Shown here: positions 35,909-39,597 of the stretch, piece after piece
Numbering within the stretch: position 1 is the stretch's first letter
Layout: every line of letters begins with the position of its first letter
Assembly: GCF_002161285.1 (NCBI RefSeq)
Contig: NZ_NFHH01000033.1
Span: 1-39,597 of the forward strand
Length of the DNA: 39,597 nucleotides
Direction: 5' to 3'
Source of the DNA: Blautia sp. An81
Lineage (GTDB): Bacteria > Bacillota > Clostridia > Lachnospirales > Lachnospiraceae
The notes under the pieces: model-generated
What the model saw: only the letters and a program-made list of their open reading frames with translations
Told to the model about the DNA's origin: nothing
The model's database searches: none
Program-made: the position numbers and the translations under genes

Positions 35909-36113
35909 AATAATTCCTTTCTTTCTGCAGTTTATATCCATCTTATCAAACCCTGCTTTTCTTGTAAATACTATAATATCTTCTCCTTTATGTCCACATC
36001 CCCTGAAATTTTTGGAGGAGTTTTCCACATTTTTTATCTCTCTCCACATCAGTCTCTTTTCTTATCTTCTCATTTATGTTACTCTTAAAAAAACAGGAAA
36101 CGAGGAAAAAACT

Positions 36114-36887
36114 ATGAAAGAAAAAATATATACCATTCCTTTAATGGATGCCTTCAAAGCAGAAGATGAATGTCCCTTCTGCTTTATTGAAAGAAATCTG
36201 GAGCAGCACGCTATGGACTTTGTTCTGGGCTCCGGTGCCTCTTATATGGAAGACGATGTAAGAGCTGAAACAGATAAAATGGGCTTCTGTCGAACCCACT
36301 ATAAAAAAATGTTCGACTATGGAAACCGTCTGGGATGCGGCCTTATTCTTACTACCCATTTTAAAAAGAAAAATGAAGAGCTGAAACAGCAGATAAAGAT
36401 GTTCTCCCCTGGAAAAGCTTCCATGCTGGGACATTTCAAAAAAGCAAAGATTGATACGGACAATCCTAAGACCTCTATTGGAAACTGGGTAAAAGAACAG
36501 GAAAATTCCTGCTATATTTGCGATTACTATCAAAATACATACAATCGCTATCTGGATACCTTCTTTGAACTATACAGGAAAAATCCTGAATTCAAAGACC
36601 TTTTCAAAAACAGCAAGGGCTTCTGTCTTCCCCATTTTTCAGACCTGGTAGAAACAGCAGAAGTACTTCTCTCTGACAAAGAAAAAAGAGACTTCTATGA
36701 TCATCTCTTTCCTCTTATGACAGAGAATCTTCAGAGAGTCACAGATGACCTGGAATGGTTCTGTGATAAATTTGACTACAAAAACAAAGATGCGGACTGG
36801 AAAAATTCCAGAGATGCCATTCAGAGAGGCATGCAGAAAGCAGCCGGCAGCTATCCCGCCGATCCGCCCTATAAAGCAGAAAAATAA
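36114..36887 (+). CDS. CxxC-rich protein, DUF6062-like
   Basis: This 257-residue soluble protein holds two repeats of the pattern CxxC ... GFCxxH: 'CPFCFIE' with 'GFCRTHYKKM', and 'CYICDYYQ' with 'GFCLPHFSDL'. Four Cys/His pairs of this kind suggest two metal (zinc) sites or a redox role. It resembles the DUF6062 family found in Clostridia; function unknown. The frame opens at 36012, but the ATG at 36114 follows GAGG and starts MKEKIYTIPLMDAF. It is a single gene; an AAAAAGGA/TCCTTTTT hairpin (36894-36937) may be its terminator. Confidence 0.8.
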   Translation: MKEKIYTIPLMDAFKAEDECPFCFIERNLEQHAMDFVLGSGASYMEDDVRAETDKMGFCRTHYKKMFDYGNRLGCGLILTTHFKKKNEELKQQIKMFSPGKASMLGHFKKAKIDTDNPKTSIGNWVKEQENSCYICDYYQNTYNRYLDTFFELYRKNPEFKDLFKNSKGFCLPHFSDLVETAEVLLSDKEKRDFYDHLFPLMTENLQRVTDDLEWFCDKFDYKNKDADWKNSRDAIQRGMQKAAGSYPADPPYKAEK

Positions 36888-36893
36888 GAAATT

Positions 36894-36945
36894 AAAAAGG
36901 AAAACTAAAATAAATATAAATCAAAAAAATCCTTTTTTATTTTTC
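36894..36945 (+). terminator. Possible terminator after DUF6062-like gene
   Basis: AAAAAGGA (36894-36901) pairs with TCCTTTTT (36930-36937), followed by T-rich TATTTTTCTTTT. The loop is long (28 nt), so the call is tentative. Confidence 0.45.
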
Positions 36946-36958
36946 TTTTAGCTTTTTG

Positions 36959-36989
36959 TCACAGATTATCCTTATTTACCATGTATATT
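36959..36989 (+). promoter_or_regulatory. Promoter of putative small RNA copy 1
   Basis: TCACAGA (36959-36965) and TATATT (36984-36989) have the same spacing as TCACAGA and TATAGT before copy 2. Spacing from both to the conserved ACTTG is identical, but the DNA between differs, which points to selected promoter elements. Confidence 0.6.
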
Positions 36990-36995
36990 AATACT

Positions 36996-37127
36996 TGTAA
37001 AAGCCAATAAGACTTTTTCAAAATCTTTTTCTTTTCATATACTGACATAGGAAATGTCAGTTACTCCTTCTTTTTTATGATTATAAGACAAGAGCAGGAA
37101 TCAGCCCCCTCAGATTCCTGCTCTTGT
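36996..37127 (+). ncRNA. Putative structured small RNA, copy 1
   Basis: The transcript is predicted to begin 7 nt after the -10. It has a 5' block, ACTTGTAAAAGCC plus about 35 nt, nearly identical to copy 2 (one substitution, two 1-nt gaps over 48-50 nt). The block can form an AAAAG/CTTTT hairpin. A second hairpin, ACTGACAT/ATGTCAGT (37041-37061), comes next, then CTCCTTCTTTTT (37064-37075). A 15-bp 3' hairpin (37088-37102 / 37113-37127) has the loop AGCCCCCTCA. Stem sequences differ from copy 2, but pairing is kept. The C-rich loop and CUCCUU could pair with Shine-Dalgarno sequences. The T run after the last hairpin is weak. Confidence 0.65.
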
Positions 37128-37214
37128 TGCGTTATCCTGACTTTATGATGATTTATGCAATATTGGTATATAATTTGTAATTTTTTTCAATTTCACATTT
37201 CTTTTATTTTTTCA

Positions 37215-37245
37215 TCACAGAATCATCACATTTTCCCGTTATAGT
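37215..37245 (+). promoter_or_regulatory. Promoter of putative small RNA copy 2
   Basis: TCACAGA (37215-37221) and TATAGT (37240-37245), spaced as in copy 1. Between the two copies, 37128-37214 is AT-rich with no gene. Confidence 0.6.
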
Positions 37246-37251
37246 ATTACT

Positions 37252-37406
37252 TGTAAAAGCCGATAAGACTTTTTCAAAAATCTTTTTCTTTTTCATATGC
37301 CGGTATTAATTTTAACCGGCTCTCCTTCTTTTTAATATTTTACAATATTAAAAAAAGAGAAACCAGAATCAACCTTCCCCCCTCATTGATTCTGGTTTCT
37401 TTTTTG
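37252..37406 (+). ncRNA. Putative structured small RNA, copy 2
   Basis: This has the same layout as copy 1, 256 bp further on: the conserved 5' block, then the hairpin GCCGGT/ACCGGC (37299-37320) replacing copy 1's hairpin with a wholly different paired sequence, then the same CTCCTTCTTTTT (37322-37333). An extra small AATATT hairpin comes next. A 14-bp 3' stem (37358-37371 / 37387-37400) has the loop ACCTTCCCCCCTCAT and is followed by TTTTTT, a good terminator. The stem also serves the convergent HD-domain gene. No open reading frame with a ribosome site is seen inside. Confidence 0.7.
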
Positions 37407-37409
37407 TCA

Positions 37410-38015
37410 TTATTTCAAATTTACTATCTCGTAGATATCTCCTCCTGCTTTTTCATCAAAATAATTCTTCAATTCAAAAAAAGATTTCCACTTTGAAATA
37501 GTCAGCTCATTAAAGCCTCTCCTCATAACTACATCTACCAGTCTCTTTTCCAGAAAAGTGGGACCGTCCGGAAAAGAAATGGCATCACAGAGCTGAATAA
37601 GTCTGTCATAATCATCATATTCTGTATTTTCCAAGTATTCCTTAATAAACAAAGTTTCCTCTTCATTACAATCATTCTTTCCGTTATATGCTCTAACATC
37701 TTTGTAAGGAAAGGAATGAGTTAAACAAATCCTCGAAATGTCCACATATCCTTTGGAAAGCATAAAGTGATATCCACATAATATATGCTTCATGTCCATA
37801 ACTCCCTCTCTTCTCCCTATATCATGAAGAAGTCCCATCACATACGCCTTCTCATCCTCCATTCCTTTACAGTTCTCCGCAATTTTTTTCGCACAATAAC
37901 CCGCTGTTCTGCAATGTGCTGTCCATGGACCTGGATTTCGCTTTTCTGCCTCACACAGCAGCATTTCTGCTTCTTCTTTTGTTGGAATCTTGCTAATCAT
38001 ATTCTGAGCATACAT
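37410..38015 (-). CDS. HD-domain phosphohydrolase-like protein
   Basis: This 201-residue protein carries an HD metal site: His34 in 'WTAHCRTAGYCAKKI', His64-Asp65 in 'VMGLLHDIGRREG', then 'MKHILCGYH' and 'CLTHSFPY', with a later Asp in 'LIQLCDAISFPDG'. HD proteins hydrolyse nucleotides or phosphates; this looks like the small HDIG/'HD domain-containing protein' group, and the substrate is unknown. The AGGG-type ribosome site (GGGAGG) lies 7 nt upstream of 38015. It follows the alarmone synthetase by 28 bp on the same strand, so a link to nucleotide signalling is possible. Confidence 0.85.
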   Translation of the reverse strand: MYAQNMISKIPTKEEAEMLLCEAEKRNPGPWTAHCRTAGYCAKKIAENCKGMEDEKAYVMGLLHDIGRREGVMDMKHILCGYHFMLSKGYVDISRICLTHSFPYKDVRAYNGKNDCNEEETLFIKEYLENTEYDDYDRLIQLCDAISFPDGPTFLEKRLVDVVMRRGFNELTISKWKSFFELKNYFDEKAGGDIYEIVNLK

Positions 38016-38783: not shown

Positions 38784-38856
38784 TGAAGCATCGGGGATTC
38801 GAACCCCGGACAACTTGATTAAAAGTCAAGTGCTCTACCGACTGAGCTAATGCTCC
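38784..38856 (-). tRNA. tRNA-Lys (TTT)
   Basis: The 73-nt cloverleaf has acceptor stem GGAGCAT/ATGCTTC, anticodon loop CTTTTAA and T-loop GGTTCGAATCC. No CCA is encoded. It is the last tRNA of the block. Confidence 0.95.
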
Positions 38857-38864
38857 ATAAAAAA

Positions 38865-38937
<73 letters not shown>

Positions 38938-38943
38938 ATTAAG

Positions 38944-39017
38944 TAGCGGGGGCAGGATTTGAACCTGCGACCTTCGGGTTATGAGCCCGACGAGCTTCCA
39001 GACTGCTCCACCCCGCG
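38944..39017 (-). tRNA. Initiator tRNA-fMet (CAT)
   Basis: The three G:C pairs of initiator tRNAs flank the CAT anticodon loop (CGGGCTCATAACCCG). Position 1 (C) cannot pair with position 72 (T here, where A is usual), the other initiator mark. 74 nt. Confidence 0.93.
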
Positions 39018-39027
39018 TTATTATCTA

Positions 39028-39100
39028 AGCCGATGATCGGACTCGAACCGATAACCTGCTGATTACAAATCAGCTGCTCTGCCAATTGAGCCACATCGGC
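39028..39100 (-). tRNA. tRNA-Thr (TGT)
   Basis: Acceptor GCCGATG/CATCGGC, anticodon loop TTTGTAA with TGT, discriminator T; 73 nt. Confidence 0.94.
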
Positions 39101-39123
39101 ATGATGTGGTATTCAATTTTAAA

Positions 39124-39205
39124 TGGGCGATGGTGGATTCGAACCACCGAAGGCGTTGCCAGCAGATTTACAGTCTGTCCCCTTTGGCCACTCGGGAAAT
39201 CGCCC
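39124..39205 (-). tRNA. tRNA-Tyr (GTA)
   Basis: Acceptor GGGCGAT/ATCGCCC, anticodon loop CTGTAAA with GTA, long variable arm as expected for bacterial tRNA-Tyr; 82 nt. Confidence 0.94.
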
Positions 39206-39216
39206 TTATTATAAAA

Positions 39217-39289
39217 TGGGACCTATAGGGCTCGAACCTATGACCCTCTGCTTGTAAGGCAGATGCTCTCCCAGCTGAGCTAAGATCCC
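39217..39289 (-). tRNA. tRNA-Val (TAC)
   Basis: Acceptor GGGATCT/AGGTCCC, anticodon loop CTTACAA with TAC, discriminator A; 73 nt. Confidence 0.94.
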
Positions 39290-39321
39290 ATTATAGATAA
39301 ATGTTTCTTTTCAGAAACAAA

Positions 39322-39395
39322 CGACCCAGAAGAGACTCGAACTCTCGACCTCCGCCGTGACAGGGCGGCGCTCTAACCAACTGAGCCACTGGGCC
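39322..39395 (-). tRNA. tRNA-Asp (GTC)
   Basis: Acceptor GGCCCAG/CTGGGTC, anticodon loop CTGTCAC with GTC, discriminator G as required for Asp; 74 nt. It is the first tRNA after the 23S gene. Confidence 0.94.
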
Positions 39396-39481
39396 GTATT
39401 AAGAAGGTTCTGTACCTTCAAAACCACATATGTAAAACCTATATCCAACTTTACCGCTTCGCTTAATCTCTTAAGCTTTTA
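39396..39481 (-). other. 23S to tRNA-Asp spacer, no 5S gene
   Basis: This 86-bp spacer is too short for a 5S gene (~117 nt) and has no 5S-like sequence. It holds a small hairpin, GAAGGT/ACCTTC (39404-39420), followed on the minus strand by the tRNA. Confidence 0.75.
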
Positions 39482-39597
39482 GGTCAAGCCCTCGACCGAT
39501 TAGTAGCAGTCAGCTCCATGCATTGCTGCACTTCCACCTCTGCCCTATCTACCTCGTCGTCTTCAAGGGGTCTTACTCCTTTCGGATGGGACATCTC
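39482..39597 (-). rRNA. 23S ribosomal RNA, 3' end (partial)
   Basis: Read on the minus strand, the segment has the conserved 23S 3'-terminal sequence ('AAGACCCCTTGAAGACGACG', 'GGAGCTGACTGCTACTAATC', 'GGTCGAGGGCTTGACC'). The gene continues past the right window edge. The 3' end is placed near 39482, within a few bases. Confidence 0.93.

Follow-up and report, generated by a model that had tools for sequence, protein, structure and literature searches.

An intergenic tandem of candidate small RNA genes

The window, that is, the whole stretch of 39,597 nucleotides from Blautia sp. An81 that was analysed, contains an intergenic segment (36936-37405, plus strand) that can be read as two tandem promoter-sRNA-terminator units (Table 1). 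The arrangement as two copies spaced 256 bp apart, proposed in the first-pass annotation, is confirmed by an ungapped direct repeat of 101 nt with 75% identity (36935-37035 and 37191-37291). Both units possess the same order of elements: promoter boxes, a TATATT or TATAGT hexamer, a 5' block of about 50 nt, a hairpin, the sequence CTCCTTCTTTTT, and a terminal hairpin. The RNA-core model described below matches unit 1 at 36993-37076 and unit 2 at 37249-37334. Since the DUF6062 gene ends before the units and the HD-domain gene is convergent to them, neither unit is a leader, as had already been concluded in the initial annotation. Judged from their sequence, these two neighbouring genes very likely make small regulatory RNAs of a previously undescribed multi-copy family. 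Elsewhere in the window (38784-39597, minus strand), Rfam models locate a cluster of seven tRNA genes together with the 3' end of a 23S rRNA gene.

Table 1. Features of the tandem locus and its flanking genes (positions refer to the window)
Feature	Position	Strand	Description
Upstream gene, DUF6062	36012-36887	+	ends 5' of both units
Unit 1 promoter	36936-36989	+	degenerate 11-bp-spaced boxes; site score 32.3
Unit 1 promoter elements	GTCACA 36958-36963; TCCTTA 36969-36974; -10 TATATT 36984-36989	+	sequence reading
sRNA unit 1 (predicted)	36993-37128	+	inferred start to end of terminal hairpin, ~135 nt
Unit 1 5' arm UCUUUUUCUUUUCAU	37024-37038	+	antisense to AUG and the A-rich codons after it; conservation
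Unit 1 central hairpin ACTGACAT/ATGTCAGT	37041-37061	+	folding, covariation
Unit 1 3' arm CUCCUUCUUUUUU, anti-Shine-Dalgarno	37064-37076	+	reading, conservation
Unit 1 terminal hairpin, loop AGCCCCCTCA	37087-37128	+	16 pairs, one a wobble
Unit 2 promoter	37192-37245	+	11-bp-spaced boxes; site score 75.9
Unit 2 promoter elements	TTCACA 37192; TTTATT 37203; ATCACA 37214; ATCACA 37225; -10 TATAGT 37240-37245	+	
sRNA unit 2 (predicted)	37249-37405	+	inferred start to end of terminal hairpin, ~157 nt
Unit 2 5' arm UCUUUUUCUUUUUCAU	37281-37296	+	antisense to AUGAAAAAGAAAAAGA
Unit 2 central hairpin GCCGGT/ACCGGC	37299-37320	+	covarying stem
Unit 2 3' arm CUCCUUCUUUUU, anti-Shine-Dalgarno	37322-37333	+	reading, conservation
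Unit 2 terminal hairpin, loop CCTTCCCCCCTCA	37353-37405	+	20 pairs
Downstream gene, HD domain	37410-38015	-	convergent to units

Folding and conservation of the RNA structure

The fold of unit 1 has an energy of -37.0 kcal/mol (z -5.4) and that of unit 2 one of -40.7 kcal/mol (z -7.7); in neither case did any of 200 shuffled sequences fold as well. In an alignment of 88 distinct copies, which was fitted to the central stem, the six base pairs of this stem are formed in 99.4% of the cells, and changes on both sides are found at all six. Cells with such two-sided changes number 120, versus 24.8 in shuffled alignments, and the covariation score is 0.698, versus 0.217 after shuffling and at most 0.175 when the stem is slid along the alignment; two coarser measures discriminate less well, as shuffles also yield six two-sided pairs in 61 of 500 cases, and 17 further pair types in 11 of 500. 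RNAalifold returned no structure for the first alignment, in which the stems were out of register.

At the window locus, compensatory changes are also found in the terminal stems, whose C-rich loop stays: it is kept at all 12 distinct orthologous loci for unit 1 (13 rows, one locus represented twice) and at all 16 for unit 2 (17 rows, again with one locus represented twice). The remaining copies of the Blautia sp. An81 genome that were read are devoid of a C-rich terminal loop. The earlier observation that the hairpins of the two units differ in sequence and yet stay paired therefore holds for the covarying central stem and the compensating terminal stems alike, and homologues examined for a loss of pairing keep their stems paired. 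The lengths initially given for the terminal stems, 15 and 14 bp, need correction: unit 1 has 15 Watson-Crick pairs plus one wobble, and unit 2 has 20 pairs.

A hairpin at the 5' side is weak in both window copies (z -0.6 and -0.5), clear in the C67 type (11 pairs, z -6.6), and has a mean z of -1.5 over 86 copies. The sequence read for the copies of three large genomes (L025-L027) contains no strong second hairpin, and two of them have the terminator-like CCUCCUUUUUU after the central hairpin. Several copies carry CATATG at the hairpin, by which a frame of 12 codons arises in unit 2, and the conserved blocks might hence be taken to encode short peptides. We regard this as extremely improbable, since this ATG is not conserved (the L025-L027 copies read CATACTG), no ribosome site was read in front of it, and substitutions in the stem are compensatory.

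Distribution of the family

A 481-bp region of the locus matches 23 of 61 genomes (that of Blautia sp. An81 included), 17 of the 20 genomes of the genus and six outside it; the latter six matches are weak and perhaps in part due to chance. A covariance model of the RNA core, built from eight copies with the promoter left out, gave 66 matches distributed over all 20 Blautia genomes, with one to six per genome, and the possibility that the units are absent from related genomes is thereby settled in their favour. Under strict filters, it matched 27 of 299 Lachnospiraceae genomes, two of which are Blautia and 25 lie outside the genus, and a rebuilt model matched 25 of 392 genomes of the order, every one of them from the Lachnospiraceae (the listing of this sample gives no count of genomes outside this family). 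The distribution of the sRNAs across the Lachnospiraceae is thus patchy. The exact core motif occurs in 11 named records, nine from Blautia, one from Robinsoniella peoriensis, and one from an uncultured Firmicutes bacterium. The tandem pair is also present in B. hansenii.

The Blautia sp. An81 genome contains four copies: the window pair, one on contig C82 between hydroxylamine-reductase-like and ROK-like genes, and one on contig C67 beside an rsmA/ksgA-like gene (all names from reading of the translations). The rebuilt model found no further copy below an E value of 0.1 in 853 kb of this genome. Near the C67 copy, Rfam places a ribosomal protein L10 leader (L091, 694-866, minus strand).

No Rfam (release 15) model matches the sRNA units of the window at its gathering score; the weak matches obtained there, of which the lowest E value (0.011) belongs to a microRNA model (26 bits, cut-off 47), appear fortuitous. 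In twelve loci examined in the same way, the only matches were tRNA and an L10 leader, both located outside the units. Membership in an Rfam family was consequently rejected for the window and these 12 loci, in keeping with the original designation of the RNAs as undescribed, and no description of the present family was found among the literature matches listed. From the sequence comparisons, the window units are best regarded as paralogues within a dispersed multi-copy sRNA family of the Lachnospiraceae.

A promoter box shared with htrA and a response regulator gene

In its best form, the box preceding the sRNAs reads TTCACA-N5-TTTATN-N5-ATCACA-N5-ATCACA, followed after 9 nt by TATAnT, a layout that suggests the site of an OmpR-family regulator; the box of unit 1 is degenerate. 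The promoter had first been described as TCACAGA...TATAnT, and boxes and TATAnT are indeed present, but TCACAGA is a part of the repeated 11-bp box, and the -10 element is not preceded by an obvious -35 element. A promoter matrix of 54 nt was derived from 46 sRNA promoters alone, and its last 34 positions were scored in the tests against a background of 400 windows of 420 nt taken from other regulator loci of the Blautia sp. An81 genome (99th percentile 6.14, maximum 9.14). A box scoring above the background maximum is present at most 130 nt upstream in 85 of 92 distinct copies (the 46 training sites included), and in 80 of these 85 it lies near the register of the model start. Of the other seven copies, which have no box in these 130 nt, one is truncated where its stretch ends and another has a box within 300 nt. 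All 15 loci tested from genomes in which a copy first came up with the rebuilt model exceed the background maximum, 11 of them in identical register; nine of the 15 come from six genera outside the training set, one being barely above the maximum (9.7). A search of eight Blautia genomes for the box pattern with one mismatch gave 48 matches versus 7 for the reversed pattern.

The dispersed, multiple and in places tandem occurrence of the copies is also what one would expect of a repetitive element, i.e., of non-transcribed palindromes (REP/BIME-like) spread by transposition. This explanation is very unlikely in our view, because most copies keep the upstream box in a nearly fixed register together with the single-stranded motifs downstream, and because the upstream flank of the window pair is conserved among Blautia species.

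TCACA boxes were also seen at other sites. A second type of sRNA-like unit stands under such a box (L133, 1480-1760, corresponding to about 35.83-36.11 kb of contig C1 of Blautia sp. An81; L147, 1242-1640; L134, L135, and L137) and consists of a UUUAUAUA linker, CCCUCCCUCUUUU or UCUCCUUUCUUU, and then a terminator-like hairpin. It is tandem in three large Blautia genomes, where the CCCUCC of the first tandem unit could be masked by AAGGAGGA within the same unit. Upstream of a small lipoprotein-like gene (L149, 1480-1600, on contig C17 of Blautia sp. An81, and L145), possibly a further member of the regulon, the full matrix gives a weak box (score 11.1).

The box pattern also matches upstream of the gene for an HtrA-type protease with trypsin and PDZ domains. 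We examined the htrA and regulator promoters of sRNA-bearing genomes, the htrA set comprising 30 loci from 25 such genomes of other genera and four Blautia loci. Boxes above the background maximum were present at 31 of these 34 loci, all of them upstream of the htrA frame, and at least one htrA with a box occurs in 23 of the 25 genomes of other genera; G132 has two htrA loci, of which one is truncated at the contig start.

The genome of Blautia sp. An81 yielded 57 matches to regulator genes. With the full 54-nt matrix, none of 50 regulator stretches (most of the 57, that of the C1 regulator included) scored above 5.0; scoring of the last 34 nt was adopted after this negative result, and the background was scored alike. 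By the shorter score and in the orthologues, the two-box site of one gene, located at about 48.0-48.7 kb of contig C1, stands out alone among the regulator promoters. Two small sRNA-bearing genomes possess 13 and 7 regulators of this type, and the C1 regulator is one of four from Blautia sp. An81 with reciprocal best matches in both (a fifth is unsettled). It consists of a receiver and a winged-helix domain and is adjoined by a kinase with HAMP, HisKA, and HATPase domains; no NCBIfam equivalog was above cut-off among the 25 best matches listed for it. An orthologue (E value of 1e-70 or lower, 78-97% identity) is present in 27 of the 28 genomes in which it was sought, out of 44 other sRNA-bearing genomes then known, and was also seen in G165 and G272. 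The exception, G022, has the sRNAs and a boxed htrA, and no orthologue of the C1 regulator at this threshold.

The promoters of the C1 regulator genes have TTCACA-N5-NNACANA-type boxes 9 nt before the -10 element. Among the 29 readable orthologue promoters (two of 31 loci were unreadable), 22 score above the 99th percentile of 6.14, two of them only just, and 19 exceed the background maximum; one of the seven below the 99th percentile has only 129 nt of upstream sequence. The same box is thus common to htrA and to the regulator gene, as in an HtrA-controlling envelope-stress regulon. Bacillus subtilis htrA promoters carry the octamer TTTTCACA; a CssR box sequence was not found in the literature searched.

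The B. subtilis PhoP consensus is TTHACA with an 11-bp periodicity, and TTCACA fits it. Another OmpR-type system, such as PhoP/PhoB, might hence control the sRNAs, with the C1 link a by-product of similar boxes, a reading to which the lack of the proposed regulator in G022 also lends itself. We consider it unlikely, given that one conserved regulator and htrA have the box in their promoters, and that only the C1 site stands out by the shorter score and in the orthologues. Control by PhoP/PhoB in particular was rejected, since the three pst loci of the Blautia sp. An81 genome have no sRNA-type box above a score of 3 and the box is therefore not one shared with a pst promoter. Upstream of pstS (G000:C6, about 46.6-46.8 kb; L211), a differing 11-bp repeat, TTTTACATACATTTAACA, is found instead, which looks like a true Pho box.

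Pairing arms and candidate targets

The RNA is bipartite, with UCUUUUUCUUUUUCAU and the anti-Shine-Dalgarno sequence CUCCUUCUUUUU placed on either side of the central hairpin. Signal-peptide genes commonly begin with AUGAAAAAGAAA, to which the former is complementary; the Shine-Dalgarno sequence has its complement in CUCCUU(C)UUU. Among the 88 distinct copies, CUCCUU is kept in 76, CTTTT plus CAT in 83, and CTCC in 82; conservation of the U-rich arm is in part selected, since the models were trained on copies that have it. Together with the C-rich loops kept at the window locus, these counts bear out the anti-Shine-Dalgarno motifs noted at first inspection.

Pairing with gene starts was assessed on 840 kb of the Blautia sp. 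An81 genome with simple heuristics as gene caller and signal-peptide rule; 696 of 752 genes were compared (49 with signal peptide, 162 membrane, 485 cytosolic) after 43 with a weak Shine-Dalgarno sequence and 13 of unclear class had been dropped. The 5' arm pairs with the starts of predicted signal-peptide genes at a median of -9.0 kcal/mol (n=49), versus -5.6 kcal/mol for cytosolic ones (n=485; p 2e-9), and shows no preference for starts of membrane-protein genes (p 0.84); the anti-Shine-Dalgarno arm shows no preference for any class (p 0.16). Scored in stretches of 24 nt, the gap between secreted and cytosolic proteins is widest for those that begin 10 to 2 nt ahead of the start codon, and it declines further downstream. 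At least the same gap was reached by 21 of 200 arms with the U/C order shuffled and CAU kept, and by 1 of 200 full shuffles. The preference of the 5' arm for signal-peptide genes is mostly a matter of composition. ATGAAAAA opens 9 of 49 signal-peptide, 8 of 162 membrane, and 9 of 485 cytosolic genes, and the 40 best combined scores belong to 10 signal-peptide, 8 membrane, and 22 cytosolic genes. The preference for signal-peptide genes in a second genus is weak, with p 0.03 for the arm of that genus and 0.045 for the window arm (n=27).

The RNAs likely block translation initiation, as their complementarity to ribosome sites and start codons suggests; a bias towards secreted proteins is a hypothesis, and a lowered secretory load has modest support. 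One may ask whether the regulator-controlled family acts by binding protein, as a decoy (e.g., a sponge for Hfq, CsrA, or the ribosome), and not as antisense to mRNA. The strongly kept U-rich runs, the C-rich loops that stay at the window locus while their stems change, the largely compositional preference for a target class, and the motif CUCCUUU, which resembles the 3' end of 16S rRNA, can all be cited for decoys. A sponge needs neither the CAU end of the 5' arm, kept in most copies, nor a secreted-cytosolic gap that peaks around the start codon, and we therefore judge decoys to be a rather doubtful alternative to pairing with mRNA.

Comparison with known Firmicutes systems

CiaRH and LisRK are both reported to control sRNAs that bind the Shine-Dalgarno sequence, and htrA (PMC12826053, PMC3091779, PMC4132741). 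The csRNAs (Ccn) of Streptococcus number two to six per genome and belong to the CiaRH regulon, which counts htrA among its most strongly regulated genes; the CiaR box, TTTAAG-N5-TTTAAG, was searched for at ten nt before the -10 element, and in the pneumococcal csRNAs the sequence that can pair with the Shine-Dalgarno sequence and start codon lies unpaired between two stem-loops (PMC3091779, PMC12826053). The present RNAs resemble them in the occurrence of several sRNAs per genome, an OmpR-type box of N5-spaced hexamers, unpaired complementarity to Shine-Dalgarno sequence and AUG, and a link to htrA. They differ in their host, Lachnospiraceae instead of Streptococcus, in the box, TCACA repeats with 11-bp spacing (consensus of 46 promoters) in place of the CiaR box, and in the hairpin that splits the anti-AUG and anti-Shine-Dalgarno arms, to which the C-rich terminal loops of the window locus are added. 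Sequence relationship between csRNAs and the present family was compared through Rfam only.

The LhrC1-5/Rli22 sRNAs of Listeria monocytogenes are multicopy, stand under the LisRK envelope-stress two-component system, and bind Shine-Dalgarno regions through three CU-rich sites, one each in a loop, in single-stranded RNA, and in the terminator loop (PMC4132741, PMC5880928). A link between htrA and LisRK is reported (PMC12826053), and a LisR consensus had reportedly not been identified as of 2014 (PMC4132741). Multiple copies, envelope-stress two-component control (proposed here), and the link to htrA recur in the present family; as to CU-rich sites, the window locus has a CU-rich single strand and a C-rich terminator loop, and no CU-rich central loop. 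The motifs are UCCC in LhrC, whereas CUCCUU and an anti-start arm are found here. Because box, arm layout, and host differ, we set the present family apart from both csRNAs and LhrC.

A third system, CssRS of B. subtilis, is a two-component system that controls htrA genes and is autoregulated according to a reference title (PMC12826053). In these two respects it is like the system described here, unlike which no sRNAs are placed under CssRS in the parts of PMC12826053 consulted; the C1 regulator, moreover, has no equivalog assignment, as noted above, that would equate the two. In the best reading, the organisation is like that of CiaRH/csRNAs and LisRK/LhrC, but with another box.

A proposed envelope-stress regulon

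From a conserved family, its structure, its promoter box, and the recurrence of this box at htrA and the regulator gene, all visible in the sequences themselves, we infer transcription, binding of the regulator to DNA, a stress signal, translational repression, and a target class. An autoregulated two-component system for envelope or secretion stress would probably drive htrA and multicopy anti-Shine-Dalgarno sRNAs that repress translation initiation. The conserved OmpR-family regulator of contig C1, with its adjacent kinase, would activate the sRNAs via the 11-bp-spaced TCACA boxes, would act likewise on htrA, and would also activate its own promoter in most of the genera examined; the regulon as a whole would then constitute an envelope- or secretion-stress response. 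Shine-Dalgarno sequences would be bound by the single-stranded CUCCUU(C)UUU and, where the window copies are concerned, by the C-rich terminator loops as well. In the antiparallel duplex envisioned, the CAU of UCUUUUUCUUUUUCAU would stand opposite the start codon and its U/C run opposite A-rich first codons, CUCCUU would stand opposite the Shine-Dalgarno sequence, and the hairpin would face the spacer between the latter and AUG; the expected type of target start is a Shine-Dalgarno sequence plus AUGAAAAAG. Initiation would thereby be blocked on a set of mRNAs, perhaps those of M-K-K secreted proteins and lipoproteins, when folding at the surface fails.

A bolder and quite tentative extension is that this sRNA class reads the starts of secreted-protein genes as such, recognising the Shine-Dalgarno sequence by one arm and AUG-AAA-AAG (M-K-K) by the other, with the hairpin bridging the spacer. 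Enterobacterial envelope-stress sRNAs silence porins; were the M-K-K reading true, the present RNAs would be their Gram-positive counterpart, and a surface-folding stress system would reduce the secretory load as a whole in one step.

Knowledge of sRNA regulation in the Lachnospiraceae, abundant commensals of the gut, seems to be scant, and the literature matches listed contained no paper on this subject. The repeated regulator box, the other genomic copies, and the link to htrA go beyond the first reading of the locus and allow a concrete regulon of sensor, regulator, protease, and sRNAs to be proposed. The coupling of htrA with anti-Shine-Dalgarno sRNAs may recur in several lines of the Firmicutes, namely under CiaRH, under LisRK, and in the present system; if so, htrA together with anti-Shine-Dalgarno sRNAs would be a general answer to surface stress.
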